From: a virus
Strand: one strand, 5' to 3'
IMG/VR virus record: IMGVR_UViG_3300044630_008099
Coordinates: 1 to 23,739 of that record
Length of the DNA: 23,739 bases
The notes below the pieces were generated by a model. That model did not search any database. It was not told the origin of the DNA and was given only the letters and a program-made list of their open reading frames with translations. A program made the position numbers and the translations under genes. This document shows, piece by piece, positions 1,757 to 20,032 of the stretch. Each line of letters starts with the position of its first letter. The first letter of the stretch is position 1.

Positions 1757-2462
1757 GTTTTATCCATTTAGCAAAGACACGTTAACGTTTTCTCCAGAAC
1801 CTCAACCAGCATCAAAGTTTTTGCCAGAATGGTATAAAAAAACACCATCGGTAATTGATAACGGTGGGATTGCTTTTGGGCAAATCGGCACAACAGTCAA
1901 AAAGTGTATGCCAATTTTCGATCTTCTAACGTCTGGATACTTGATTACTGCACCGTGCGATATATATCTAGATGCAACAAATCCAGAAAAGCTCCAATGG
2001 TCTATTCCTCAGGGCCTAATCTCTCATCAAGGAGACATGTTTGCCGTACATGCTAAAGAGCAGTATGATAAAATGCCCGTAAACGATGCTTTGCACCATA
2101 AAGATCTTTTGAGAATTTTCCCGTTTTGGGCAGTGGGAACTCCAAAAGGCTATAGTACAATTTTTCTTCAGCCTCCGTATTCAGATAAAAGCCCACTAAT
2201 GGCTTTACAGGCAATAGTCGATACAGATTCTTTTATAACGGATGGGCACCTTTCTTTCTGGGTAGAAAAAGATTTTAAAGGAACAATAAAACAGGGAACT
2301 CCGTTGGTTCAAATTATTCCATTTAAGAGAGAGTCTTGGGCAAAAAGCATAGAGTCTGTTGAAAGTTCTGAAAAAATATTTTATAAACAAAGGCTTAAAT
2401 TAAGATCAGTTTTTGCTAACGCCTATAAAACACTGTTTAGAGAAAAGAAAGAATACAATTGA
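1743..2462 (+). CDS. Conserved unknown phage protein, paralogue of the next gene
   Basis: The protein has 239 residues and starts ATG behind AGGAAT. It shares a series of landmarks with the 250-residue neighbour: LPEWYKK (27-33), KKCMPIFDLLTSGY (53-66), a PKGYSTIFLQPP strand (134-145), and FKGTIKQGTPLVQIIPFKRE (178-197) before a basic tail. Such proteins occur in phages near oxygenases and glycosyltransferases, but I know no experimentally defined function. The alternating strand pattern with GTP.xQIIPF would fit a jelly-roll domain; this is inference. The stop overlaps the TTG start of the next gene (TTGA, 2459-2462), indicating translational coupling. Confidence 0.8.
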   Translation: MNIIKFYPFSKDTLTFSPEPQPASKFLPEWYKKTPSVIDNGGIAFGQIGTTVKKCMPIFDLLTSGYLITAPCDIYLDATNPEKLQWSIPQGLISHQGDMFAVHAKEQYDKMPVNDALHHKDLLRIFPFWAVGTPKGYSTIFLQPPYSDKSPLMALQAIVDTDSFITDGHLSFWVEKDFKGTIKQGTPLVQIIPFKRESWAKSIESVESSEKIFYKQRLKLRSVFANAYKTLFREKKEYN

Positions 2463-3211
2463 ATTTTTTAAAGATTAAGTTTACCCCAGCTTTTCATAAA
2501 CCTGGGGATAGGCTTACTCCTCCAGAGCCTGGGAAAAAACATGTTCCAGAATGGTATAGAAGTTTAGCTAAATTTGATCAATCGAATAGCGATATAACCC
2601 TTAATCCAGTAAATCATTTGGGGTCTGACGGGGCTCAAGTTTCTACAAAAATGTGTATGCCATTTTTAGATGCAACAACTGCTGGATATATGTATGTTTT
2701 AGAAGATGATTTAACTGTTACCCTAAACAAAAATGGCAAGCCCAGCCTTTCTTGGGGTGGAGACGTCATGCTGGTTGATAAAAGGCCAATCCTGGACATT
2801 GTTGTGCCAGATAATTGTCACCCAGTTCATTATGGCTGGAGGATGAATTGGTATTATGAAACTCCTCCAGGATATTCTGTATTGATTACCCATCCTATGA
2901 ATAGGTATGATTTGCCGTTTTATGTGCAGTCTGGAATTGTTGAGTCAGATATCTGGGGGCTGCCTGTCTTTATAGCATTTTTCTTAAAAAGAAATTTTCA
3001 GGGGGTAATTCCAAAAGGAACTCCAATAATGCAAATAATTCCATTTAAAAGAGATAACTGGGAGCTAGAGGTTATTGATACTGAACAAGAGATTAATCGT
3101 CATGAGCTAATGGCTGAAAATAGGAGGTCTATGCTTTATGGATATTACAAAAAATCAGCTTGGAGAAAGAAAATTTTTAACGTTTTAGGGAAGAAAGTGT
3201 CAGATGATTGA
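2459..3211 (+). CDS. Conserved unknown phage protein, paralogue of the previous gene
   Basis: The protein has 250 residues, with a TTG start overlapping the upstream stop. It carries the same landmarks as its neighbour: VPEWYRSL (29-36), TKMCMPFLDATTAGY (63-77), PPGYSVLITHP (136-146), SGIVESD, and FQGVIPKGTPIMQIIPFKRD (180-199). The pair clearly arose by duplication. A separate sequence block (residues 95-130) has no counterpart that I can align by eye. The C-terminal 50 residues are charged and helical. It overlaps the glycosyltransferase start by eight bases. Function is unknown; linkage to a glycosyltransferase and two hydroxylase-like genes suggests a shared role in surface modification, but this is not shown. 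Confidence 0.8.
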   Translation: MNFLKIKFTPAFHKPGDRLTPPEPGKKHVPEWYRSLAKFDQSNSDITLNPVNHLGSDGAQVSTKMCMPFLDATTAGYMYVLEDDLTVTLNKNGKPSLSWGGDVMLVDKRPILDIVVPDNCHPVHYGWRMNWYYETPPGYSVLITHPMNRYDLPFYVQSGIVESDIWGLPVFIAFFLKRNFQGVIPKGTPIMQIIPFKRDNWELEVIDTEQEINRHELMAENRRSMLYGYYKKSAWRKKIFNVLGKKVSDD

Positions 3212-7247: not shown

Positions 7248-7463
7248 ATGATCATAAAAACAATTGAAGAAATGGAAAAGCTTGTTTCTTCTAATAAAGA
7301 ACTTTCTTGGGACGGCTGGACTGTTGTAAAACGATACCCCTCAGATAAAGCAAAAACTTCAAAACAAGGAGTTCGCATAAAGGGAGTTTGGCATATAGAG
7401 CAACGGTTTGAGGCCACTGAACAGGGCTGGGAAATTCCTGGAAAGCTCGAAAATAATGCATAA
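7248..7463 (+). CDS. Small conserved unknown protein
   Basis: The protein has 71 residues and starts ATG 7248 behind GAGAG. It reads IKTIEEMEKLVSSNKELSWDGWTVVKR and ends GWEIPGKLENNA. Alternating tryptophans and aspartates (WDGW, GVWHIEQRF, GWEIP) suggest a small beta domain. I have an impression that such short proteins accompany WhiB genes in actinophages, but no function is known to me. The last eight bases overlap the WhiB start, implying coupled translation. Confidence 0.6.
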   Translation: MIIKTIEEMEKLVSSNKELSWDGWTVVKRYPSDKAKTSKQGVRIKGVWHIEQRFEATEQGWEIPGKLENNA

Positions 7464-7740
7464 ACATGAGTGGAAGGATTCTGGCTCATGTAATGACTAT
7501 GACACAAATTTGTTTTTTGATAAATACGAAGAAAATCTATCTTTACGCCCAGCAATTGATAAGCTATGCTCAGGCTGCCCTGTAGCAAGAGAATGTTTTG
7601 CTGTAGGAGTTTCTCAAAAAGAGTGGGGTGTTTGGGGAGGAATTTTCTTGGAATATGGTAAAATATCTAGAGAGTTTAACAACCATAGATCTAAAAAAGA
7701 CTGGGGAGATAAATGGAAAGACTTAACGACAGATGAGTAG
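7456..7740 (+). CDS. WhiB-like iron-sulfur transcription regulator
   Basis: I choose ATG 7456 (94 residues), which overlaps the previous stop; an in-frame ATG at 7408 would add 16 residues unlike the family. The four cluster-binding cysteines are present: C12, C38, C41 and C47 in the pattern C-x25-CxxC-x5-C, followed by EWGVWGGIFLEY (56-67), the WhiB turn. The C-terminus is basic (NNHRSKKDWGDKWK), as in the DNA-binding tail. WhiB proteins bind a [4Fe-4S] cluster and the primary sigma factor and occur in Actinobacteria and their phages. In phage TM4 the phage homologue represses host whiB2 and alters septation; the same here is only a suggestion. Confidence 0.9.
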   Translation: MHKHEWKDSGSCNDYDTNLFFDKYEENLSLRPAIDKLCSGCPVARECFAVGVSQKEWGVWGGIFLEYGKISREFNNHRSKKDWGDKWKDLTTDE

Positions 7741-7746
7741 GATCTA

Positions 7747-7983
7747 ATGTATACAGATGCAATGAAGACAGCTTTTCATTCCCTGGCCCACTTTGCCCCG
7801 AAAAATTTTGCGGTACAGATTATAGATAATGAGCATTTTGTTACAGTAAAGGCAAGTGAAAAAGCCTTTATGTCGCTATCTCACGATGGTAAAAGACAGG
7901 CTGTAGAGTATATGATTAGAATAAAGAAAGCTTTTGAAGATAATGGATCAATTGTTTTGCTTGTTAGAGAAGGCGGAGAATAA
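7747..7983 (+). CDS. Small unknown protein
   Basis: The protein has 78 residues. It contains FAVQIIDNEHFVTVKASEKAFMSL, two predicted beta strands, followed by a helix (GKRQAVEYMIRIKKAFEDNG) and a final strand IVLLVREGGE, so it looks like a small alpha/beta domain. No signal peptide or membrane segment is visible. ATG 7747 and ATG 7762 are both possible starts, and the ribosome site is weak (TAGGAT). The stop overlaps the next start in TAATG. I do not recognise a family. Confidence 0.6.
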   Translation: MYTDAMKTAFHSLAHFAPKNFAVQIIDNEHFVTVKASEKAFMSLSHDGKRQAVEYMIRIKKAFEDNGSIVLLVREGGE

Positions 7984-8612
7984 TGGAAATGCCAGGAAAT
8001 ATCGTTCCAGCTGCCAAAAAGGATGACATATATAAAAACAATGTTGCTAAAATTGGCGATGGCCATGATAATATAAAAATCTATAACGATGTTTTAGAAA
8101 AAGATGACTTAGAAACCCTTTTAGATTTTTGTCAAAATGCAAATTTTTCTGATGGTGGAGAAGATGAGCAGGGACAATGGTATAACAAAATTCTTGAAGC
8201 AGAAAATGTTCCAGAAAATATTTTTTCAATAATGTCAAAAGTTTATGATTTTGCTGAAAAAGAGTTGCAGGATTTTTATGGCGTTCAGCTAGACCCTTGG
8301 ACCACAGAACCATTTTCGTTGCTTGTTTGGAGGCCTGGAGACTCAATGGGCGAGCATGTTCCAGAATGGTTTGTTCATCATCATAATATTTGTACTACAT
8401 TTTATATCAATGACGGGTACGACAACGGAGAAATCGAATTTCCAGAGCATGATTTAAAAATTTCTGTTAGTAAAAATAGTTTAATGGCATTTCCTGGAAA
8501 TAAAACTTATAGAAACTTAATTAATGAAGTTAGTGGTACAAATAAATATACCGCTAACTTATGTTTTAAATTTTCTGGATCAAGCTTTTTAGGAGAGGCC
8601 TCTTTTGAGTAA
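7983..8612 (+). CDS. 2-oxoglutarate oxygenase-like protein with altered metal site
   Basis: The protein has 209 residues; ATG 7983 has GGAG at 7975-7978. The fold landmarks of phage prolyl-hydroxylase-type proteins are clear: LLVWRPGDSMGEH (113-125), TTFYINDGYDNGEIEFPE (138-155), NSLMAFPGNKTY (165-176) and TNKYTANLCF (186-195). However the usual HxD is replaced by H125-V-P-E128, and the distal histidine appears to be N178 (YRNLINEV), with K188 where arginine normally binds 2-oxoglutarate. Either the metal ligands are unusual (a nearby HHH at 132-134 could help) or the protein is a non-catalytic relative. Context is the WhiB/membrane-protein run. Confidence 0.72.
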   Translation: MEMPGNIVPAAKKDDIYKNNVAKIGDGHDNIKIYNDVLEKDDLETLLDFCQNANFSDGGEDEQGQWYNKILEAENVPENIFSIMSKVYDFAEKELQDFYGVQLDPWTTEPFSLLVWRPGDSMGEHVPEWFVHHHNICTTFYINDGYDNGEIEFPEHDLKISVSKNSLMAFPGNKTYRNLINEVSGTNKYTANLCFKFSGSSFLGEASFE

Positions 8613-9051
8613 TTTATTAAACATTGATTTTATTGTTTTTGCTGTCCTTTCAACGCTTATTGTTTTTTTAGCGTTTTATGTTTTAAAATTAAGCATAAGA
8701 AAAAGAAAATTAATTCTAGAAATTGTTCAGCTGCAAATAGATAAAGGAATTCTTACAAGTAAAATAAAAGAAGAAATAGAAAAAAGAAATTCTTCAGACA
8801 TAGAAAACAGCGATGGATTTTTAAAGTTTATATCTCAATCAAGAGATTGGGCTTTTGACTATATAGAGCAAGTCCAGGCAGCTCTTCTTGAATTTAAAAA
8901 CAGGGTAGAGCCACAAATCTTATATGCAAAAACTTATGGCACAACTGTCGGCCAATCCCCACACACTATTATTATTGATAGGATATCTGATGCTTATGAT
9001 GACCTTGCAAAAGTAATGCCCGAAAACTCAACAGACAATGTGATAAAATAA
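8605..9051 (+). CDS. Membrane-anchored coiled-coil protein of unknown function
   Basis: The protein has 148 residues, with TTG 8605 behind AGGAGAGG (8591-8598), overlapping the previous stop. Residues 8-29 (DFIVFAVLSTLIVFLAFYVLKL) form one membrane helix, followed directly by basic RKRK and a predicted coiled coil (about 34-65, EIVQLQIDKGILTSKIKEEIEK). A second helical region lies at 80-100. The topology resembles spanin-like or envelope-anchoring proteins, but there is no lipobox or proline-rich stalk, so a spanin call is not justified. It precedes the holin candidate in the same run. Confidence 0.62.
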   Translation: MSNLLNIDFIVFAVLSTLIVFLAFYVLKLSIRKRKLILEIVQLQIDKGILTSKIKEEIEKRNSSDIENSDGFLKFISQSRDWAFDYIEQVQAALLEFKNRVEPQILYAKTYGTTVGQSPHTIIIDRISDAYDDLAKVMPENSTDNVIK

Positions 9052-9062
9052 AATTTATTAAA

Positions 9063-9086
9063 TTTTCTATATAAAAATATAGAAAA
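9063..9086. repeat. AT-rich inverted repeat, 10-base arms
   Basis: TTTTCTATAT (9063-9072) and ATATAGAAAA (9077-9086) are perfect complements around a four-base AAAA loop, in the 54-base gap before the holin candidate. The stem is weak because it is AT-only apart from one pair. It lacks a following U-tract on the plus strand and may be an RNA-processing or operator-like site. Confidence 0.55.
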
Positions 9087-9105
9087 ACAAAAAACAAGGA
9101 GAAAA

Positions 9106-9396
9106 ATGAAAACCGAACAACTAAAAAACATGCTAGCTTCTTACGGAAGAAGCGTACTTGGAGCAGCAACTGCCCTATACCTAGCTGGTGTTACTGATCC
9201 AGCAGACCTGGCTTATTCATTGCTAGCTGCATTGATTCCAGTAGCCCTTAGAGCATTGAATCCAAACGATGCGGCATTCGGAGTGCTTCCATCGGTAGAG
9301 GCCGTAGAGAAGGCTGCCAAGGCCGCTAAGCCTATGAAGAAGCCTGCTGCCGCTTCTAAGCCAGTTGCAAAAAAGCCTGTCTCAAAAAAGAAGTAG
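9106..9396 (+). CDS. Putative holin
   Basis: The protein has 96 residues; ATG 9106 has AAGGAG. It has two hydrophobic segments, residues 12-29 (SYGRSVLGAATALYLAGV) and 36-51 (AYSLLAALIPVALRAL), separated by a short polar DPAD turn. The conserved-looking NPNDAAFG follows, then a lysine/alanine/proline-rich tail from 67 (KAAKPMKKPAAASKP...KKK). Small size, two membrane helices and a strongly basic C-terminus fit class II holins, which form the membrane lesion that lets a cytoplasmic lysin reach the wall. The M23 enzyme opening the same co-oriented run would be its partner. The base composition is richer in GC than the flanking AT-rich genes. Confidence 0.65.
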   Translation: MKTEQLKNMLASYGRSVLGAATALYLAGVTDPADLAYSLLAALIPVALRALNPNDAAFGVLPSVEAVEKAAKAAKPMKKPAAASKPVAKKPVSKKK

Positions 9397-9405
9397 GAGT
9401 GTTGC

Positions 9406-9439
9406 TTGGCGGATAGATTAACCACAGTCTGTCCGCCAA
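9406..9439 (+). other. Strong 12-base-pair hairpin between holin and GT61 genes
   Basis: TTGGCGGATAGA (9406-9417) pairs with TCTGTCCGCCAA (9428-9439) with a single T-G pair and a ten-base loop. No U-tract follows, but AAAACTTT is close. It ends 12 bases before an ATG that has no Shine-Dalgarno sequence, so it may be a terminator, an RNA-processing site, or a structure controlling the next gene. Confidence 0.6.
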
Positions 9440-9451
9440 CAGCAAAACTTT

Positions 9452-10615
9452 ATGTCATTAATTAATCATATAGACGAAGGCCCAAATCACGGCGGCAAAT
9501 TAAATGATTTGTTATACTTTAAAGAATTTAAAACATTAGATGTTTTTGGTAAAACATTTTCAGTGTCATACAAAAACAGGAAAACATTTAACTCCTTAGA
9601 TGCTTTTTTTACAATAACACAACTAGAAAATCTTGAGCTTATTAGCAATTCTCAACCTTCAAATGAAGTCTTTATTGACGAAGATGTTGTGGTAATTCCC
9701 ATTGCGGGCAGCGAAATAGGATATTTTCATTTAATTTATAATGTTTTATCAGAGATTGAAATAATTAAATCTATGTTTCCAAGCATAAAAATTAAAATAC
9801 TAAACTTATGTGAAAAAGAAACATTTGCTTTTCTTATTGAAAAATTTAAAAAAACCGATGCTTTTAAGGTGTATGGAATTGAAGACTCTGACATAATTAA
9901 TTTTGAAGAAAATGATTTTATAAAAATTAAATCTTTATTTTTTATATACACAGAATATAACCCAATAGCTTCTAAAGTAGCAAGTCACAATTTTGATTAT
10001 AGTGGGGACAGGACAGGTAAAAAGCTCGTTTGGTCATACCTAATTGATAAACCAGTACGGAATAGATTTTTATTAAATGATCAAATTACAAATAACAGAA
10101 AAATTTTTTTAAGTGGAATGAAGAGCAATACAGTTAAAAGAGCTACGGCCAATCTTATTTACAAAAGAGTTTTTGGATATTCCTTGTCTTCAAAAGAAAC
10201 AAAATTTCTTGATAACATGAGGGTAGAAAACTATCCAGATTTTGTTGATAGGTTAATGACAGAATCAGAAGAGCTTAAGCTCGAAAAAATGTTTAAAGAA
10301 GCTGGTTACGAAATTATAGACCCAGAAGACTTGATAAGCATTTGTGATCAGGCTGCTCTTTTTGCTTCAGCAAGCCATATTGTTGGCCTAGCGGGGGCAT
10401 CTTTTATAAATTGTATTTTTTGTAAAAAAGATACAAAAGTTTTAATTTTAAATAGCTCAGACTCTTATTCATTTCCTCATAAAGAAATCGTAGCTTCTTT
10501 TGGACTTGATGTAAGCATTTCTCCAGTGCAAAAAACATGGAGAAATTATACTTACCCTGCAAAAATGATTTTTAACTTAGTGAAAAGGGATTTCCAGTCC
10601 TTTCTCCCCCTGTGA
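9452..10615 (+). CDS. GT61-like glycosyltransferase
   Basis: The protein has 387 residues. The family pattern of GT61 (DUF563) is visible: IGYFHLIYNVLSEIEII (89-105) contains the conserved H93 early in the domain. Near the end, EELKLEKMFKEAGYEII is followed by PEDLISICDQAALFASAS and HIVGLAGASFINCIFC (309-324), the consensus E..l...Gfe.i.pe.ls..eQ..lf..A..ivG..GA.l.N.iF. GT61 enzymes transfer xylose, GlcNAc or other sugars to glycans. The start has no ribosome site; an in-frame stop at 9419 excludes earlier starts. It is related to the minus-strand gene at 11380-12393. Very AT-rich. Confidence 0.75.
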   Translation: MSLINHIDEGPNHGGKLNDLLYFKEFKTLDVFGKTFSVSYKNRKTFNSLDAFFTITQLENLELISNSQPSNEVFIDEDVVVIPIAGSEIGYFHLIYNVLSEIEIIKSMFPSIKIKILNLCEKETFAFLIEKFKKTDAFKVYGIEDSDIINFEENDFIKIKSLFFIYTEYNPIASKVASHNFDYSGDRTGKKLVWSYLIDKPVRNRFLLNDQITNNRKIFLSGMKSNTVKRATANLIYKRVFGYSLSSKETKFLDNMRVENYPDFVDRLMTESEELKLEKMFKEAGYEIIDPEDLISICDQAALFASASHIVGLAGASFINCIFCKKDTKVLILNSSDSYSFPHKEIVASFGLDVSISPVQKTWRNYTYPAKMIFNLVKRDFQSFLPL

Positions 10616-10621
10616 TATAAT
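10613..10621 (+). promoter_or_regulatory. Extended -10 (TGATATAAT) giving a leaderless message
   Basis: The TGA is the stop codon of the GT61 gene and also the TGn of an extended -10. TATAAT (10616-10621) ends six bases before ATG 10628, and no Shine-Dalgarno sequence lies between, so transcription should begin at or next to the start codon. No good -35 is seen at 17 bases. Confidence 0.7.
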
Positions 10622-10627
10622 TAAATT

Positions 10628-11377
10628 ATGATAAACATTATGATTCCTATGGCTGGTCAGGGAAAAAGATTTTTAGACAAAGAAATTTTTGTTCCAAAGC
10701 CACTGGTTGTGGTAAAAGGGAAAACCCTTGCTGAACACTCAATTGACTCTATTAAAATTCCTGGTGCGATGTTTCATTTTATTACAAAAGGCTTTGATAA
10801 TAATTTTTATAATAAACAGCTTTCTATGATTTTTTCTGATAAGCTTGGAAACTCTTATAAAGAATATTCTATCAATATCAAACAGTATGGTGCTGCCCAT
10901 AGCTGTTTGTTTGCTGAGAGTACGTTTAAAGATAAGGGGCTTTCGGACATGCCACTAATTATTTTAAATTGCGATCAAATATTAAATTGGGATCCACAAG
11001 ATTTTTTAAATTTTATAGAAAAAAATGATCCAGATGGTGCTGTGATATTGTACAAGTCTGATGATCCTAAACATAGTTTTGCAAAAATAAATAAACGTGG
11101 AGAAATTTCTGAAATTATAGAAAAGGTTGCAATAAGTGATGACGCTTTGATAGGGGTTCATTATTGGAAAAAGGCGTCAGACTTTTTTGAGTCAGCCTCA
11201 CTCCTTTTTGATAAACAGTATTGGGGTTCTAGAGAGGCCTATGTGTCTGAAACTTATAATTTTTTAATTAAAAAAGGAAAAACGATTCTGCCGTATTATT
11301 TTGAGAATGACCAATACATTTCGCTAGGCACTCCAGAGGATATTGAAAAATATTTACAGAATTCAAATGAAAAATAA
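10628..11377 (+). CDS. Sugar-phosphate nucleotidyltransferase
   Basis: The protein has 249 residues. It opens INIMIPMAGQGKRF with the nucleotide-binding loop (G10, G12, R14), then PKPL (23-26), whose lysine contacts the nucleoside triphosphate. LNCDQI has D116 for the metal, EKVAISDDALIGVHYW (165-180), and SLGTPEDIEKYL closes the domain. This is the core of the RmlA/GlmU-N/MurB-type nucleotidyltransferase superfamily, which makes NDP-sugars or similar activated precursors. The substrate cannot be read off; related enzymes also make CDP-linked alcohols. It likely supplies the neighbouring transferases. It is predicted to be translated from a leaderless message. It ends two bases from the convergent GT61-like gene. 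Confidence 0.83.
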   Translation: MINIMIPMAGQGKRFLDKEIFVPKPLVVVKGKTLAEHSIDSIKIPGAMFHFITKGFDNNFYNKQLSMIFSDKLGNSYKEYSINIKQYGAAHSCLFAESTFKDKGLSDMPLIILNCDQILNWDPQDFLNFIEKNDPDGAVILYKSDDPKHSFAKINKRGEISEIIEKVAISDDALIGVHYWKKASDFFESASLLFDKQYWGSREAYVSETYNFLIKKGKTILPYYFENDQYISLGTPEDIEKYLQNSNEK

Positions 11378-11379
11378 AG

Positions 11380-12393
11380 CTATAGCAAAGTTGAATTTTT
11401 TAATAAAGACTCTTCAATTTCTTTAAATGAAAAAGTTTTTCTATTATGAGTTTCCCTAGGTAAGGCATAGCTAAGAGCTCTGCCTTTTTCATCATAGATT
11501 GTGGGGAATTCAGAATACTTTATCCCAGCAAACATACAGATATAGTCATACCATACCTGGTACTCATCATCTAAGTTAATTGCAATAATCTCAGACTCTT
11601 TCTTGCAAAAAATTGTATTTACAAGTCCAGAAGATTTTATTCCTGCAATTTTATAAGCCCCAGAATAAAGCTCAACCTGCTCCAAGAGTCCCAAATCTTC
11701 TGCCGCAATAATTTGATAGCCTTTATACTTAAAAAACTTTTCTAGCTCTATTTCATCGTTTTTAGAGATATATCTAAAGTCATCTTTATTTCTACCCTTT
11801 TGCTCATGGTGATTAAATCTAGATATAAATATTTTGAGGTCTGGATCTATTTTTGATTTTATATAGCCCTTAAACCTTGATTGCAATAAAGGATAGATTG
11901 TTTGTATATAAACTTTAAAATCTTTTTTGTTGTGCCAAGGATCAAAGAATTCTTTTACAAAAATGTTTGTAAATAAATAATTATGAGTAGACCAAATAAA
12001 GAATAAATTCTTAAAAACATATTTTTCTCCCGAAGCTACATTAAAAACATTGCTTTCTGGAATTGAATATACAGATGTTAAATCTTTTAGTATGCCATTT
12101 TTTTCTTTAGTGTGGTGCTCATCGGTTAAAACATATAGGTTTATTTCTGGGTCAAGCCTTTTTATAAACTCATATTGAGCCAGTTTGTCAAATATAAAAT
12201 GAAAGTGGGTATAGCCAGTAAGGTCTATAATAAAGGCTTTTTCTGAAATTGTTGACTTTCTTTTAAGAAAAGGGTTAAGATCGGGTCTAGATTTATTGTA
12301 AATTGAAAAATCTTTTACTTTGTTGAGAGGATATCCAAACCCAGGTATCTTCATTTTTTTAATTTTTTTATAATTACAAATAAATTCAGACAT
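11380..12393 (-). CDS. Second GT61-like glycosyltransferase
   Basis: I start at ATG 12393, nine bases after GGAG (12402-12405); a TTG at 12408 is weaker. The 337-residue protein has HFHFIFDKLAQYEFIKRL (63-80), LKIFISRFN (186-194, the typical nucleotide-site strand) and NDEIELEKFFKYKGYQII, then EDLGLLEQVELYSGA and YKIAGIKSSGLVNTIFCKK (247-265). The order and wording parallel the plus-strand GT61 gene at 9452, so the two are distant paralogues adding different residues. It is transcribed from the palindromic promoter at 12419-12434 shared with the HAD-cupin operon. Confidence 0.74.
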   Translation of the reverse strand: MSEFICNYKKIKKMKIPGFGYPLNKVKDFSIYNKSRPDLNPFLKRKSTISEKAFIIDLTGYTHFHFIFDKLAQYEFIKRLDPEINLYVLTDEHHTKEKNGILKDLTSVYSIPESNVFNVASGEKYVFKNLFFIWSTHNYLFTNIFVKEFFDPWHNKKDFKVYIQTIYPLLQSRFKGYIKSKIDPDLKIFISRFNHHEQKGRNKDDFRYISKNDEIELEKFFKYKGYQIIAAEDLGLLEQVELYSGAYKIAGIKSSGLVNTIFCKKESEIIAINLDDEYQVWYDYICMFAGIKYSEFPTIYDEKGRALSYALPRETHNRKTFSFKEIEESLLKNSTLL

Positions 12394-12418
12394 TGCCAGC
12401 TTCTCCAACTCATTAGTC

Positions 12419-12434
12419 TGCTATAATTATAGCA
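12419..12434. promoter_or_regulatory. Palindromic bidirectional promoter
   Basis: TGCTATAATTATAGCA is a perfect 16-base palindrome. On each strand it reads TGCTATAAT, a consensus extended -10 (plus TATAAT 12422-12427, minus TATAAT 12431-12426). Predicted starts are about 12434 (plus) and 12419 (minus). No convincing -35 exists on either side. The plus transcript reaches AAGGAG 12440-12445 and ATG 12459. The minus transcript reaches GGAG and ATG 12393. Confidence 0.75.
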
Positions 12435-12458
12435 TAGAGAAGGAGTATCTAAAAGCAG

Positions 12459-12866
12459 ATGAGCATAGAGATTGGAAAGCATAACGAATTTTATTTAGAC
12501 AAGCCAAAAACAATTTTTTGTGATATTGATGGAACAATTCTTAAACACACACATAAATTTAGCAAGCTAGACAGCCACCCACCAACAGCCCTTCCTGGGG
12601 TTATAGATAAGCTTGATGAGTGGGACTCTATTGGATATAAAATTATATTGGTAACAGCAAGAAAAGAATCTAGCAGAGAAATGACCGAAAGACACCTTAA
12701 AGACCTTGGAATCATGTGGGATCACTTAATTATGGGTGTTTCAAGTGGTCAAAGAATTTTAATTAATGATAAGTTAAAAAGTGAAGATCCCGATAGGGCC
12801 AAAGCTATTAATGTAGTTACTGATTCGGGTTTCGCTAATACTCACTGGGAAGATTTTGGGCTATGA
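12459..12866 (+). CDS. HAD-superfamily phosphatase
   Basis: The protein has 135 residues. Motif I is FCDIDGTIL with nucleophile D22 and acid D24. Motif II is ILVTARKES with T66. QRILINDKLKSEDPDRAKA supplies the C-terminal motif region with N103 and D104. It lacks a cap domain insertion, like small phosphatases of the KdsC or capsule-type family, which remove phosphate from sugar phosphates. The substrate is unknown. It is the first gene of a five-gene operon with ATGA overlaps, driven by the palindromic promoter. The distance from AAGGAG to ATG (13 bases) is long, so translation may be modest. Confidence 0.82.
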   Translation: MSIEIGKHNEFYLDKPKTIFCDIDGTILKHTHKFSKLDSHPPTALPGVIDKLDEWDSIGYKIILVTARKESSREMTERHLKDLGIMWDHLIMGVSSGQRILINDKLKSEDPDRAKAINVVTDSGFANTHWEDFGL

Positions 12867-13189
12867 TAACTGGAAATATTAATAATACCGTTGGCGGATG
12901 GTACATTGGCAATTTTGAAAAAGCGGTATATAAAACAAAAACATTTGAGGCATCTTATAAAAAACATCATAAAGGTGAAGTTTATGGATGGCATTATCAT
13001 CAACACCTAGATGAGATAAACTTTGTGGTATCTGGAAAAATTAAAATGCAGGGCGAAGTCTTCGGTCCTGGAGACATTTTTATTCTTGAGCCATATGATA
13101 TTGCTGATCCAGAGTTTCTTGAAGATTGCGAAATTATTTGTATAAAAGCACCCAACATAACTAATGATAAGATTGATCTAAAGCGATGA
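12863..13189 (+). CDS. Small single-domain cupin
   Basis: The protein has 108 residues. Cupin motif 1 is GWHYHQHLDEINFVVSGKI (42-60), with H44, H46 and E51 as likely metal ligands. Motif 2 is FGPGDIFILEPYDIAD (67-82), where the usual second histidine is replaced by an aspartate-containing turn. Cupins of this size include sugar isomerases/epimerases, dioxygenases and simple binding proteins; the sequence does not choose between them. Placement between a HAD phosphatase and a phosphodiesterase-like gene suggests a role in making or tailoring a phosphorylated sugar precursor. Both ends overlap neighbours by four bases (ATGA). Confidence 0.76.
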   Translation: MITGNINNTVGGWYIGNFEKAVYKTKTFEASYKKHHKGEVYGWHYHQHLDEINFVVSGKIKMQGEVFGPGDIFILEPYDIADPEFLEDCEIICIKAPNITNDKIDLKR

Positions 13190-13632
13190 ACCCAAAAGTC
13201 ATATCTCATCGTGGCAATCTTTATGGACCAGATAAAGAAAACGAAAACACACCATCACAAATATTGCTTGCTATTCAAAAAGGCTTTGACGTAGAAATAG
13301 ATTTTTGGGCAGAAGATAATAGGCTTTTTTTAGGACATGACTACCCAAAGCACGAGATCTCCATTAATTTTTTAAGAGATAATCAGAAATATCTTTGGAT
13401 ACATTGTAAAAGCCTAGAGGCTATCGATCTTTTAAAGCGTTTATTGCCAACTAGTAATTTTTTCTGGCACCAAAATGATGACTTTACTTTGACTAGTCTT
13501 GGCTATATTTGGACATATCCAGGAAAAGAAACAACTCAGTATTCTGTTATAGTAGATCTAACAGAATCTCCTAATACTAATATGGAGATTTTCGGTATTT
13601 GCACAGATTATCCAGAAAGAGTTTTGTTATGA
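13186..13632 (+). CDS. Compact glycerophosphodiester phosphodiesterase-like protein
   Basis: The protein has 148 residues. ISHRGN (H8, R9), ENENTPSQI, FDVEIDFW (E37, D39), LFLGHD (H51) and the closing ICTDYPERVL match the GDPD family, which hydrolyses glycerophosphodiesters with metal bound by the two acidic residues. The family usually spans 230-250 residues, so this is a short form: after the HD motif it moves quickly to LWIHCKS, standing where the ExK motif normally is, with H in place of E. It may be a minimal phosphodiesterase acting on a wall teichoic-acid-like or other phosphodiester glycan, or may have lost activity. Confidence 0.72.
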   Translation: MNPKVISHRGNLYGPDKENENTPSQILLAIQKGFDVEIDFWAEDNRLFLGHDYPKHEISINFLRDNQKYLWIHCKSLEAIDLLKRLLPTSNFFWHQNDDFTLTSLGYIWTYPGKETTQYSVIVDLTESPNTNMEIFGICTDYPERVLL

Positions 13633-14216
13633 ATAGAACAGAAATTTTTAAGAAAGTAAAAAATGCAAAAGCTAATGGGCAAATTCTTTTCTTGGGAAAA
13701 GTTTTTAAAGTTGTTCCAAACTGGGAAACTTTTTATAATATTTTTAAGCAAAACCTTGAATTAGGAGCAATAGATTTTTCTTCTCCAGGCAGCTTAGCAA
13801 TGGATAATTCAGAAGATTATACAAAAGATCTAGATTTAATAATCAATAACCTTGAAGCTTTTCACCCAGGAACAAAAATTGCTGCCCTGTCAATTGTGCA
13901 CTTTTTAAGTGCAAACGACAACGCAGTCCCAGAAGCCGCCAGAGCCTTTGCAGAAGACTTTATGAGTAATAACCCAATTAAGCTACCACCAGATTTTGAT
14001 TTCAATCTTTTTCAGCCCACAATTCACTCTGATCCTGTTGACGGATTTTATGTACAGTGTAAGGGGCAGACAATATGGAGGGCATATTACAAAAATAAAA
14101 CCGAAGAGTATTTAACAAATCCTGGGGACTTGCTTTATATTCCTAAAGGAATTGAGCATAGCGTTGAGTCTATGAATGTTCGTGCAGCAATATCTGTATC
14201 CTTTTTTGACGAGTAG
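13629..14216 (+). CDS. JmjC/cupin-like 2-oxoglutarate oxygenase
   Basis: I use ATG 13629, which overlaps the upstream stop (ATGA); an in-frame ATG at 13599 lies inside the previous gene. The 195-residue product has FQPTIHSDPVDGFYVQCKGQ (128-147) with H133-x-D135, IWRAYY, then NPGDLLYIPKGIEHSVES (164-181) with distal H177. This is the metal-binding arrangement of JmjC-type cupin hydroxylases (consensus H.D..D.f..Q..G.K.W...PGDlLYIP...H). The N-terminal 120 residues look helical and are not recognised. Likely targets are arginine, histidine or asparagine side chains of a protein; which protein is unknown. It is the third oxygenase type in the window. Confidence 0.78.
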   Translation: MNRTEIFKKVKNAKANGQILFLGKVFKVVPNWETFYNIFKQNLELGAIDFSSPGSLAMDNSEDYTKDLDLIINNLEAFHPGTKIAALSIVHFLSANDNAVPEAARAFAEDFMSNNPIKLPPDFDFNLFQPTIHSDPVDGFYVQCKGQTIWRAYYKNKTEEYLTNPGDLLYIPKGIEHSVESMNVRAAISVSFFDE

Positions 14217-14221
14217 CCATC

Positions 14222-14911
14222 ATGGATTTAGTTTATATTTGCGGACCTGGACACAATGAAGAGCTTCGATACTCTATTAGGTCTGCCGTTAAAAATTTAA
14301 AGTTTAATAATCTTTGGGTAGTTGGTGGAAAGCCAGATTGGTATGTAGGGAATCATTTAGAAGTTATTCAGAATAAGTCTAAGTATACAAATGCTCGGAA
14401 TAACCTCAGAGCTATTTGTAACTCCCAAGAAATATCAGAATCATTTATTTTAATGAATGATGATTTTTATATTATAAATAGAGTTAGCGATGTACCATAC
14501 ATGCATGGCGGCTTGCTTGCTGATAAAATAAAAAAATACGAAGATTTAACTGGTAACACCAGATATGTGTTAATGCTAAAAAGAACCCTATTAAGCTTAT
14601 CTCGCAGAATAATAAAAAAAGATGTTTTAGACTATGAGCTACATGTCCCAATGGTTATGGAAAAAGAAAAGCTTTTAGCTATAATAGAAAGTCCCGATTT
14701 GTGGAGGTCTAGATATGGAAATACCTTTAACGTTGGAGGCATAGAGATGGATGATGTAAAGGTATATTCCTTTGGGGCACTTGCTAAAAAATCTTACGAC
14801 ATAAATAATTTAAAATATGACTATTTATCTAGCAATAGTGATTCTTTTGAAATGATAAAGGATAAAATCCTAAGCGTTAGTTTTCCAGATAAAGTGGTTT
14901 ATGAAGCTTAA
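14222..14911 (+). CDS. Stealth-like sugar-phosphate transferase
   Basis: The protein has 229 residues. It opens MDLVYICGPGHNEELRYSIRSA; NLWVVGGKPDW (30-40) follows, then NNLRAICNSQ and ESFILMNDDFYII (73-85). ELHVPMVMEKEKLL (139-152) with H141 comes next. These correspond to the conserved regions of Stealth proteins (N.ELRYSLRS, F.y.NDDff, .H.P...), hexose-1-phosphate transferases that build phosphodiester-linked capsular polymers. The protein is shorter than full Stealth proteins, which have four conserved regions. It is the last gene of the HAD-cupin operon, five bases after the oxygenase. Its TAA stop shares TTAA with the stop of the convergent gene. Confidence 0.72.
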   Translation: MDLVYICGPGHNEELRYSIRSAVKNLKFNNLWVVGGKPDWYVGNHLEVIQNKSKYTNARNNLRAICNSQEISESFILMNDDFYIINRVSDVPYMHGGLLADKIKKYEDLTGNTRYVLMLKRTLLSLSRRIIKKDVLDYELHVPMVMEKEKLLAIIESPDLWRSRYGNTFNVGGIEMDDVKVYSFGALAKKSYDINNLKYDYLSSNSDSFEMIKDKILSVSFPDKVVYEA

Positions 14912-15957
14912 CGGTTTACTCTAGAAGCTCTTGCAACAGCTACCTGTCTTGCAGATCGATTCGCAGGCCTACGAACATTTTTAATAAACTCAGAAAATTT
15001 ATCTAGCTCTACAGCCTGTCGATCTTGTATCCATTCTGCTCTAGCCCTTGCTTTTTCACTATAGGAATTATAGTTATTTTCGATAAGCTTAATCCCCGCT
15101 GCAGCTTCAGCTATGCTAAGTGGATTAATTAATACCGCAGCATCCCCAATACCCTCTCTTACATGGGGAGTATCTACATGTACAGTTGGAATTCCATACC
15201 CTGCAGCCTCAATAGCTGACATTCCATAAGTTTCGTACATGGACGGCACCAAGAGAACCCTTGTTTGTTCTAAATATTTGTATACATCTTTTGGATCCAC
15301 CCTTGGATGTAACTCCACGTTTGGAAGCTTAGCAGCTTTTTCTTCCAAATCTGGTATGCCGTGAGTTGGCTCAGCAGGAGACCTAACAATAATAAACCTT
15401 TTATCTGGGTGCATTTCTGCTAAAGAAAGCACTACTTGAACCCCCTTGTTCCTTAAGGATGAAAGGCAGGTATAGGCATCTCCGTTAGTGCTAGTATTAG
15501 GTGGCAAATCACTAATCGGTGGGTGTAAAACAATTGCCCCAGGCTCTCCCCACTGCCTTGCAGAAGTTTCTGTATTATATACAGCGTAGTCTGCATAGCA
15601 GACTCCAGCTCGGATTCCCTTTCCGTATCTAGGCGGAGTATGAACGTTTACTATCGAGACCGCATTGGCCTCTTGTGCAGCTAAAACAGCTGGCAAGGAC
15701 AATTCATTTTGAGCAATAACCACCCTGGCATTAAAATCTTTAAGCTGCTTTGCAATGGGGCTAGGGTCTGCTTTTATGTCAAGAACATCTGGAGTATTTA
15801 TTTGAGTAACACGTATTCCGTCAATATAATACTCAGCCTGAGTGTTTGTTAGAACAACTCTCTCGCCTTTAACAGCCATCATTGATCTGTGAAGAGATAC
15901 TTCTCCTCCCATGTTCCAAAGAGGAGGATAGCCGTGAGATAAAGCCACAACAGTCAT
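14908..15957 (-). CDS. GT-B glycosyltransferase (GT4-like)
   Basis: The protein has 349 residues. The C-terminal donor-binding motif VPSMYETYGMSAIEAAGYG (237-255) with E242 and E250 is the EX7E signature of GT4-type retaining transferases. The N-terminal domain opens TVVALSHGYPPLWNMGGEVS with the GGxE acceptor loop. The Arg-rich tail (RRPANRSARQVAVARASRVNR-like, 329-349) is unusual. It overlaps the preceding minus gene by four bases. The region is much less AT-rich than its neighbours (hand count 15301-15360: 27 of 60 G+C), so it seems better adapted to the phage core than the cassette to its left. Confidence 0.88.
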   Translation of the reverse strand: MTVVALSHGYPPLWNMGGEVSLHRSMMAVKGERVVLTNTQAEYYIDGIRVTQINTPDVLDIKADPSPIAKQLKDFNARVVIAQNELSLPAVLAAQEANAVSIVNVHTPPRYGKGIRAGVCYADYAVYNTETSARQWGEPGAIVLHPPISDLPPNTSTNGDAYTCLSSLRNKGVQVVLSLAEMHPDKRFIIVRSPAEPTHGIPDLEEKAAKLPNVELHPRVDPKDVYKYLEQTRVLLVPSMYETYGMSAIEAAGYGIPTVHVDTPHVREGIGDAAVLINPLSIAEAAAGIKLIENNYNSYSEKARARAEWIQDRQAVELDKFSEFIKNVRRPANRSARQVAVARASRVNR

Positions 15958-16628
15958 CGATCAGCTAACAGTCTTTTAGCTTCTTGTAGCCCAGGACCAT
16001 CTCGCCACTCTTCAAATGCAATTCTATCTAGGTCACGTTTTATTTTATCGTTAGCTTCTTGATATGTCTGATCGTCTGGGGCTGCCTTATTCCAACGGTG
16101 TAAGTGACTAAGCTTTACATCTGGGTGGTAAATAAACTTTGTAAGCTTGCCAAGCTCTCTCCAGGCATTGTCTAGAAAAAGGTGTCGACTCGTTGGCATT
16201 CCTAGCCAGCCAAGTCTTTTATACATTTCTACTGGAACTACAACATGTGTAGGAAGATCTTGACCATGTAAATGCTCTAAGCCATCACTACCATAGGCAA
16301 CACCAAGCTCAGGTAAAGATTTTACCATAATCTCATCCCAACCTTTTGTTTCTGGAACAACGTCGTCTCCAAGTATCGCAACATGAGTAAAGTCTTCTTT
16401 AGAGGCTATCTCTGCTAACTCATTCAAAGAAGCTGTAAAAAATATTCTTGGGCCAACAATATATCTAACTTTTTCTAAAGCTGGATAAATGTGATCATCA
16501 TCTTCGTCTATTCTTGCAAGAATTTCATAATCTAATTTGCAGGTTTCTTTTGCTGCTTTAGCAAGTCTTTCAAGATTATGAGGTCTGCCACGTGTAGGGA
16601 CTGTAATTGCTAATTTAAAATTGCTCAT
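15954..16628 (-). CDS. GT-A glycosyltransferase (GT2-like)
   Basis: The protein has 224 residues. KLAITVPTRGRPHNLERL (5-22) is the standard GT-A opening with the PTRGRP loop. EILARIDEDDDH (35-46) carries acidic residues for nucleotide-sugar binding, and VAILGDDVVPETKGWDE (83-99) holds the DD metal site. Family-2 type enzymes of this length are frequent in actinophages, where some decorate virion proteins or host surface glycans. The start overlaps the membrane-protein gene stop (four bases), and its own stop overlaps the GT-B start, so the three genes form one minus-strand operon. Confidence 0.85.
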   Translation of the reverse strand: MSNFKLAITVPTRGRPHNLERLAKAAKETCKLDYEILARIDEDDDHIYPALEKVRYIVGPRIFFTASLNELAEIASKEDFTHVAILGDDVVPETKGWDEIMVKSLPELGVAYGSDGLEHLHGQDLPTHVVVPVEMYKRLGWLGMPTSRHLFLDNAWRELGKLTKFIYHPDVKLSHLHRWNKAAPDDQTYQEANDKIKRDLDRIAFEEWRDGPGLQEAKRLLADR

Positions 16629-17266: not shown

Positions 17267-17324
17267 ATATTTACCTGCCCAATTGGGGGGTATTTAACTC
17301 GCTTAACACAAGGAGATGATATAT

Positions 17325-17714
17325 ATGGTTATTACAACACCATTTGGAGGACTTGGTCTAGATATTGACAAGTTCTTTAGCACAACACCAGCAACAAACA
17401 CCTACCCACCATACAACGTTGTTAGGATTAACGACGACAAGATCGTAATGGAGTTTGCGGTAGCTGGATTCAAAAAGGATGAGATCAGCATTACTGCTGA
17501 AAAAAATGTCCTATCAATAAAAGCAGAAAAGCCAGACGCTGACGATAAGAAATACCTACATAAAGGTATTGCTGCTCGTAGGTTTACTCGCTCATTCTCG
17601 CTACCAGAATACTATGAAGTAGATTCCGCTGGATTTGAAGACGGTATTCTATACATTAATTTGGTAAGAAACATTCCAGAAGAGAAAAAGCCAAAGTCGA
17701 TTAAAATCAGTTAA
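17325..17714 (+). CDS. Hsp20 small heat-shock protein (IbpA-like)
   Basis: I choose ATG 17325, nine bases after AGGAG; the ATG at 17316 abuts the ribosome site. The 129-residue protein has PPYNVVRINDDKIVMEFAVA, GFKKDEISITAEKNVLSIKA and GIAARRFTRSFSLPEYYEV, then AGFEDGILYINLVRNIPEEK and the C-terminal IKIS (the I-x-I/V motif). This block order and wording follow IbpA (YPPYNVE..., GIAERNFERKFQL, VNGLLYIDL.RVIPE). Small Hsps hold unfolding proteins; phages of the T4-like group often carry one, probably aiding virion protein assembly or infection stress. Confidence 0.93.
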   Translation: MVITTPFGGLGLDIDKFFSTTPATNTYPPYNVVRINDDKIVMEFAVAGFKKDEISITAEKNVLSIKAEKPDADDKKYLHKGIAARRFTRSFSLPEYYEVDSAGFEDGILYINLVRNIPEEKKPKSIKIS

Positions 17715-18880: not shown

Positions 18881-20032
18881 ATGCCATACCACGTTGGAGA
18901 AAAGGGATCGTACGGTTGCTCAGGCTACCCTGCCCTTAAAGATGATGGAACCGTAATGGGTTGCCACACTACAGCTGAAGAAGCTGCTAATCAAATTTAT
19001 GCGATTAACGAGTCTGAAGGAAATATCGAGGCTGGTGTTGGTATTAAAAATCCAGAAGACTGGCCTATGGACAAAGTAGAGACTGACAGAAACGGTATGG
19101 GCTCCAGGATTGGTCAGCCAGAACCAGCTTCCAAGAAACCCTCTGCACTAAAAGATCCTAAGAAAAAACCAAAAACTAGAGTTGGTGGTGCTGGCGGAGA
19201 CTCTTCTGGAGCAATCTCTACAACTAATTCTGGCACATCTATGGGAACAAAGGCAGACGAAAAAGTTGCCCCGTGTTGGGATGGCTATACTCAAAGGGGC
19301 ATGAAGCCAGGAGACAATGGACGAATGGTTCCAAACTGTATTCCAGTATCAAAAGCAGATGCTACATTAGTCGAAGGTGATTTTGTAGTGGCAATGACGA
19401 CTGAAGGTGCAATCGTTGGTCAGGTTGAACACATTATGCTTGAGGGTGGAACATATGGTCAGCCTGGAAATCCATATTCGGTAGAATCAACTCCTGAAAA
19501 CCCAGCGGTAGCTGTTAGAATCCTTGAAGAAGACGACGGCGTTTACTACTACACACCTTACTCAATTGGTGCACTAAGATCTGATGTTACAAGAATTGAC
19601 ATGCCAAACATTAGTATGGAAGATTATGAGGATGATGATTATGATGAATACATGGACAAAGCTGAAGGCTACAGCCCTCCTGCTGGGGCTAGGAGTGCTG
19701 CTCGTCGTGCTATCAAGTTCAAAGAAGACGGAAAGGCCACAGGGGCTGGAACTGCAGTTGGATGGACTAGAGCTAGACAATTGGCTAATGGAGAGACACT
19801 CTCGCTAAGCACAGTAAAGCGTATGTACTCTTACTTCTCTCGTCACGAAGTAGATAAGAAGGGTAAGGACTGGGGAAACCAAGCCAACCCTTCTAACGGA
19901 TATATCATGTGGCTAGCGTGGGGTGGAGATGCGGGATACTCTTGGTCAAGACGTATTGCTCAGCGTGAAGCAGACAAAGCACTATTTTCTGATTTTGGAA
20001 AAGACTATACAACAGCAAAAAGATTAATCTAG
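18881..20032 (+). CDS. Multidomain phage protein with actinophage N-terminal module
   Basis: The protein has 383 residues. Part 1 (1-45) is MPYHVGEKGSYGCSGYPALK...GCHTTAEEAANQIYAI, a short cysteine-bearing module seen at the N-termini of actinophage head-maturation proteins. Part 2 (46-160) is a low-complexity linker with PCWDGYTQRGMKPG. Part 3 (162-240) is beta-rich, LVEGDFVVAMTTEGAIVGQV to YYYTPYSIGALRSDVTRI. An acidic stretch (247-257) leads to part 4 (265-365), a helical domain SPPAGARSAARRAIKFKEDG...TRARQLANGETLSLSTVKRM...MWLAWGGDAGYSWSRR. Part 4 recurs in phage proteins but has no function known to me. Its arginines suggest nucleic-acid contact. No protease motif is evident. Confidence 0.75.
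   Translation: MPYHVGEKGSYGCSGYPALKDDGTVMGCHTTAEEAANQIYAINESEGNIEAGVGIKNPEDWPMDKVETDRNGMGSRIGQPEPASKKPSALKDPKKKPKTRVGGAGGDSSGAISTTNSGTSMGTKADEKVAPCWDGYTQRGMKPGDNGRMVPNCIPVSKADATLVEGDFVVAMTTEGAIVGQVEHIMLEGGTYGQPGNPYSVESTPENPAVAVRILEEDDGVYYYTPYSIGALRSDVTRIDMPNISMEDYEDDDYDEYMDKAEGYSPPAGARSAARRAIKFKEDGKATGAGTAVGWTRARQLANGETLSLSTVKRMYSYFSRHEVDKKGKDWGNQANPSNGYIMWLAWGGDAGYSWSRRIAQREADKALFSDFGKDYTTAKRLI

Follow-up and report, generated by a model that had tools for sequence, protein, structure and literature searches.

A phage gene set with a mini-GDPD and a Stealth-fold protein consists of two separately inherited modules

The viral record IMGVR_UViG_3300044630_008099 (IMG/VR), whose 23,739 nucleotides are referred to here as the window, raises the question of whether eight neighbouring genes at positions 9452-14911 belong to a single system. 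The genes encode two GT61-family glycosyltransferases (GT61A and GT61B), a sugar nucleotidyltransferase, a HAD phosphatase, a small cupin, a small GDPD-like protein (mini-GDPD), a JmjC-like oxygenase and a Stealth-like sugar-1-phosphate transferase. A preliminary description made from the sequence alone read the set as a cassette apparently built for a phosphodiester-linked glycan. The comparison of related loci shows that the set is not one system but two separately inherited modules standing side by side. Other parts of the description were confirmed. All eight open reading frames exist, and their identities are supported by Pfam and PHROGs or by fold; in PHROGs all eight proteins match phage families, mostly of unknown function, and the matches of the cupin, the GDPD and the Stealth protein are full-length. 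The tight operon of the HAD, cupin, GDPD, JmjC and Stealth genes is real: ATGA overlaps join the first four genes at their three junctions, and the Stealth gene starts after a gap of 5 bp. The most likely start of the JmjC gene is the ATG at 13629, not the TTG at 13599. Both GT61 proteins score 50.7 bits against a PF04577 cut-off of 27.

The separation of the modules is evident from the genes that travel together. Genes were regarded as linked when the partner lay within 3 kb of the anchor gene, and distinct loci were counted after removal of near-copies. The nucleotidyltransferase is linked to the GDPD in 53 of 58 loci on viral contigs when near-copies are included. Among distinct loci, the linkage is found in 36/40 viral, 6/6 cultured cyanophage and 31/32 cellular loci. 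In the control set anchored on the Stealth gene, the same link occurs in one of ten distinct loci, and the viral and cellular frequencies are therefore not due to chance. The GDPD lies near the Stealth gene in only 3/28 loci, all of them near relatives of the window. Thus, the recurrence proposed as a check in the preliminary description holds for the nucleotidyltransferase and the GDPD, but it does not extend to the GDPD and the Stealth gene; the partner of the GDPD is the nucleotidyltransferase/HAD pair. The cupin is found near the GDPD in 9/40 distinct viral loci. In the window the nucleotidyltransferase and HAD genes are separated by GT61B, which lies on the minus strand, whereas L009, L012 and L044 contain a fused open reading frame of 366 amino acids. 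Such fusions exist in both domain orders, either with a different HAD type, HAD_2, ahead of the nucleotidyltransferase (SAR11 and cyanophage B23) or with the HAD-III domain after it (L009, L012, L044, L024, L049).

A different arrangement is that of L091, a relative which otherwise matches the window and has no GDPD. Here the Stealth gene comes immediately after a homologue of the window gene at 9106-9396. The 4.8-kb cassette is missing and both flanks are kept, so that window positions 9350 and 14219 correspond to L091 positions 7888 and 7998, about 110 bases apart. The same order without the cassette is found in L095. On contig 3300044535_003416, a distance of 17 kb separates the JmjC-Stealth pair from the GDPD module, which lies on the other strand. 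In both L024 and L049, whiB has the GDPD module as its neighbour, and the Stealth gene is found elsewhere behind the flank gene. These arrangements indicate that the segment between 9452 and about 13632 is a cassette carried as mobile cargo and that the Stealth gene is part of the phage backbone. The JmjC gene can go with the Stealth gene alone, since in L094 and L088 it adjoins Stealth with no adjacent GDPD.

None of the 54 GDPD-like family members matches the Pfam GDPD profile, and the window protein matches PDB profiles at 7e-4. The assignment is thus based on structure and motif, at the level of the superfamily fold. The AlphaFold2 model contains a GDPD-type (beta/alpha)8 barrel. All of its 37 highest-ranking structural matches are to GDPD/PLD-type enzymes or to chains that include a GDPD-like domain (Z 8.2-11.6), whereas other barrels reach at most 7.6. 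The two catalytic histidines, the arginine and the Glu/Asp metal ligands of the superfamily are present: residues H8, R9, E37, D39 and H51 are kept in 78/80 viral, 6/6 cyanophage and 52/53 cellular members. In two of the 80 viral members the catalytic His8, Arg9, Glu37 and His51 are replaced. The GDPD assignment of the preliminary description holds by fold and by the profile-to-PDB match, but not by the Pfam profile. The protein shares the barrel fold and the HR, ExD and GHD-histidine motifs with Thermus thermophilus 1vd6, Staphylococcus aureus LpgD and GlpQ. It differs from these enzymes in its length (148 versus about 220-300 amino acids) and from known GDPDs in its tie to the nucleotidyltransferase operon and in an invariant His73-x-Lys75, which apparently replaces acidic residue-x-Lys at the spacing expected for the third acidic metal ligand. 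Secreted GlpQ trims external teichoic acid. Since the mini-GDPD lacks a signal peptide and begins directly at the barrel, such trimming is unlikely for this protein.

The Stealth-like protein matches Stealth_CR2 (PF11380) at 9e-6, which is below the curated cut-off, and all 33 family members match this profile. A Foldseek search with the AlphaFold2 model, built from 33 phage relatives, ranks Mycobacterium tuberculosis CpsY and GNPTAB first, and with a second aligner the eight Stealth entries listed all score Z 16.3-17.6, compared with 11.3 for the next fold, GT6. The preliminary assignment is thereby borne out at the level of the fold. The chemistry and motifs of Stealth enzymes have been described (PMC10668966, PMC11418123). 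The phage protein has the same fold as GNPTAB and CpsY over 204-212 residues and keeps the CR2 motifs ELRYSxRS and NDD, the latter invariant. His141 and Arg162 are invariant across the phage members, including those of cultured actinophages, and are candidate counterparts of the catalytic His/Arg of CR3 (GNPTAB H956 and R986; CpsY R419), matched by their order only. In contrast to GNPTAB and CpsY, the protein has only 229 amino acids and no spacer domains. The CR1 motif IDVVYTF (PMC10668966) is shortened and degenerate, with the N-terminal MDLVYIC aligning in its place, and MxDVK stands where the CR4 tetrapeptide C[LI]ND is expected. Because of this replacement it is named a Stealth-fold enzyme and not a full Stealth member. 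On the model it is a divergent enzyme of this fold, for which phosphotransfer activity is predicted.

Relatives of the Stealth-fold gene occur in at least 50 cultured actinophages, where they are annotated as hypothetical proteins. Examples are gene 6 of NC_027365.1, gene 22 of NC_073473.1, gene 105 of NC_048169.1 and gene 215 of OP068343.1. Their neighbourhoods vary and include terminase, tail, whiB and rII genes. The mycobacteriophage copies include Fionnbharth gp6. Searches of the presumed host order for Stealth proteins gave empty results without a positive control, and nothing is concluded from them. No published description of phage-encoded Stealth proteins, or of the GDPD/nucleotidyltransferase pair, was found in the literature, the coverage of which was incomplete.

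The mini-GDPD family is distributed far more widely, in Pelagibacteraceae, SAR86, Bacteroidota, candidate phyla radiation lineages, Prochlorococcus, one Lokiarchaeote and one actinomycete. It is accessory in cellular genomes, as strong matches are found in 4/118 genomes of the SAR11 family and in 1/201 genomes of the tested actinobacterial order. In the SAR11 loci L191 and L184 (about 7974-9794) a bare two-gene operon, the mini-GDPD followed by a HAD-nucleotidyltransferase, lies between gyrB and lepA, both of which were identified by inspecting the sequence. In a quick tree of the family, whose deep branches are weak, 13 changes between viruses and cells are required; exchange of the module therefore seems to have been repeated.

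The host of the window phage is most likely an actinobacterium, judged from gene content. The window carries a WhiB-like regulator gene, whiB is present in 12/12 related records, and the cultured phages with Stealth relatives have actinobacterial hosts only. The low guanine-plus-cytosine content of the window suggests a streamlined aquatic actinobacterial lineage.

We propose, with roughly even confidence, that two independently inherited glycan modules have been joined in an actinobacterial phage: an intracellular donor-making module, and transferases decorating glycans of the host envelope or the virion. Module A would comprise the nucleotidyltransferase, the HAD phosphatase, the cupin, the mini-GDPD and the accompanying GT61 enzymes, a portable cassette most likely acting inside the infected cell. 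The nucleotidyltransferase would make a nucleoside diphosphate (NDP)-activated sugar or polyol, in the synthesis of which the HAD enzyme would remove a phosphate. The mini-GDPD may split a small soluble phosphodiester by a cyclic-phosphate mechanism and so supply or clear a phosphorylated precursor. The GT61 enzymes would transfer the product. Module B, consisting of the JmjC-like and Stealth-fold proteins and the backbone GT4 and GT2, would take sugar-1-phosphate or sugar from an NDP-donor and attach it to an acceptor, either a glycan or a protein. The probable target is the host envelope glycan, with receptor masking or superinfection exclusion as the outcome, or the virion. Gene content, folds, conserved active-site residues, modularity and host class are the observations behind this proposal, and from them we infer the substrates, the order of the steps and the target. 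The role in glycan chemistry suggested in the preliminary description is supported. Several observations weigh against the proposal. The near relatives L008, L009 and L011 hold both modules in one operon, as the window does, and the modules may thus cooperate there. The SAR11 GDPD pair can stand without an adjacent glycosyltransferase, which leaves a glycan role of the pair uncertain. Judged by motif spacing only, His73 apparently takes the place of the usual third acidic metal ligand, and the activity of the mini-GDPD could therefore be altered. Finally, Glu389 and Asn1151, which are required in GNPTAB, are without clear counterparts in the Stealth-fold protein, where Leu62 occupies the position of Glu389.

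The shared operons, together with the fact that both enzyme classes are real, would be explained if all genes served to build or edit a phosphodiester glycan resembling teichoic acid, the nucleotidyltransferase supplying the Stealth enzyme and the GDPD trimming the polymer. The backbone of some relatives also contains a cytidylyltransferase-like gene (rfaE_dom_II 3.7e-12; glycerol-3-phosphate cytidylyltransferase 1.2e-9; both below cut-off). Nevertheless we regard a single system as improbable. The GDPD and Stealth genes are rarely linked outside the window, and then only in near relatives; none of the cultured actinophages with Stealth relatives belongs to the 16 records that gave a GDPD match, and four inspected cultured-actinophage neighbourhoods of the Stealth gene contain no such cassette. 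The window proteins scanned include no TagF-like polymerase and no enzyme specific for the synthesis of a cytidine diphosphate (CDP)-polyol, and the GDPD has no secretion signal. Any phosphodiester linkage in the glycan is hypothetical.

Decoration of capsid or tail proteins by the modules is a tentative alternative that we consider rather unlikely. Virion glycosylation is established for mycobacteriophages (PMC12363180), and the glycosyltransferases of Che8, Corndog and Myrna are reported to modify capsid or tail proteins. The Stealth homologue of the Streptomyces phage TurkishDelight is flanked by the genes of the major tail protein and the head-to-tail adaptor and has a glycosyltransferase nearby. 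Other homologues, however, are found near terminase, whiB or rII genes, the window copy adjoins lysis-type genes, and module A is also present in cellular genomes. GDPDs react via a cyclic phosphate on substrates including glycerophosphodiesters and lysolipids (PMC10404611), which would fit a role of module A in lipid or small-metabolite chemistry, such as recycling of glycerophosphodiester head groups. The isolated gene pair between gyrB and lepA in SAR11 agrees with such a role. It is nonetheless very unlikely, as phages and many other genomes carry these genes within glycan clusters, alongside GT61, epimerases and other transferases.

The preliminary description considered the gene combination undescribed. 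Most of it, namely GT61, nucleotidyltransferase, HAD, GDPD and cupin, was already present in cyanophage S-SM2 (2010; GU071095). Its cluster contains the GT61 protein SSM2_205, the nucleotidyltransferase 204, HAD 207, mini-GDPD 208 and cupin 211. It differs from the window in that it gives no Stealth or JmjC match, its nucleotidyltransferase and HAD genes are apart, it contains additional aldolase and heptose-type genes, and its host is a Gram-negative cyanobacterium. The 'LPS' gene clusters of S-SM2-type cyanophages have been described with their function left open (Sullivan et al. 2010, PMC3037559). In capsule loci of the EcbF/BcbF type a HAD phosphatase likewise accompanies a sugar nucleotidyltransferase or is fused to it, and the phage HAD proteins match TIGR01689 weakly, at 0.022 for the window protein and 1.7e-4 for that of S-SM2. 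To our knowledge, no GDPD has been described in capsule loci of this type.

Table 1. Features of the window that belong to, or flank, the two modules
Feature	Position	Strand	Evidence and remarks
WhiB-like regulator	7408-7740	+	PF02467 9e-12 (Pfam scan); marker of actinobacterial host
96-amino-acid hydrophobic protein	9106-9396	+	Resembles a holin by inspection only; forms left flank of insertable block; hairpin follows
GT61-family glycosyltransferase A	9452-10615	+	PF04577 3e-13
Sugar-1-phosphate-type nucleotidyltransferase, module A	10628-11377	+	PF00483 2.8e-5 (above cut-off); phrog_3980 3e-50; PDB 4evw 2e-12, full length
GT61-family glycosyltransferase B	11380-12408	-	PF04577 2.8e-13; located between nucleotidyltransferase and HAD genes, which are fused in relatives
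HAD phosphatase (type III), module A	12459-12866	+	PF03767 (HAD-IIIB) 3.4e-10 (above cut-off); TIGR01689 0.022
Small cupin, module A	12863-13189	+	phrog_24762 5.7e-29; Cupin_2 PF07883 2e-4 (below cut-off)
Mini-GDPD (148 amino acids), module A	13186-13632	+	AlphaFold2 predicted local distance difference test (pLDDT) 95.8; GDPD fold Z up to 11.6; active-site residues conserved
JmjC/cupin-type oxygenase-like protein	13629-14216	+	JmjC_2 PF08007 3.8e-8 (above cut-off); goes with Stealth rather than GDPD in some relatives
Stealth-fold sugar-1-phosphate transferase (predicted), module B	14222-14911	+	AlphaFold2 pLDDT 94.8; Z 16.3-17.6; phrog_7999 2e-45
GT4-family glycosyltransferase, backbone	14908-15957	-	PF00534 2e-14; stable Stealth neighbour in near relatives
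GT2-like glycosyltransferase, backbone	15954-16628	-	phrog_14945 3e-36

Between the GT4 and GT2 genes, the relatives L091 (9735-11410) and L008 (10775-12450) carry genes for an FkbM methyltransferase, the cytidylyltransferase-like protein and an unknown protein; the window is without this trio. A TagD-type route to CDP-glycerol was rejected, as its candidate is found only in the backbone of relatives and is ambiguous, with heptose-1-phosphate adenylyltransferase scoring better. A literature search for a CDP-2-glycerol precedent gave nothing usable. Elsewhere in the window, three tRNA genes (Asp, Met, Thr) lie at the left end (820-1088). They are followed by two genes (1743-2462 and 2459-3211) whose products resemble each other, one being weakly DUF6065-like; this pair recurs within 3 kb of the Stealth gene in 7/28 viral loci. 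A phage-borne HSP20 small heat-shock gene (17316-17714) is kept in near relatives. The 383-amino-acid product of 18881-20032 shares its C-terminal 90 or so residues, at about 50-63% identity, with proteins of Vibrio, Roseobacter, Pseudomonas PaBG and haloarchaeal phages, possibly as a common virion or maturation domain.

Two database families so far labelled 'unknown' gain an identity at the level of the fold, the mini-GDPD and the actinophage Stealth-type transferase. From phages to SAR11 and a Lokiarchaeote, the mini-GDPD almost always accompanies a sugar nucleotidyltransferase. A speculative possibility, which we consider rather doubtful, is that the mini-GDPD and the HAD/nucleotidyltransferase form a self-contained and so far undescribed pathway to a building block that is activated and bears phosphate; the GDPD, by forming a cyclic phosphate, would make the substrate of the nucleotidyltransferase. 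This pathway would be exchanged among cyanobacterial and actinobacterial phages and streamlined ocean bacteria, and alongside it a widespread, unannotated actinophage Stealth-type phosphotransferase would attach sugar-1-phosphate to the host or the virion.

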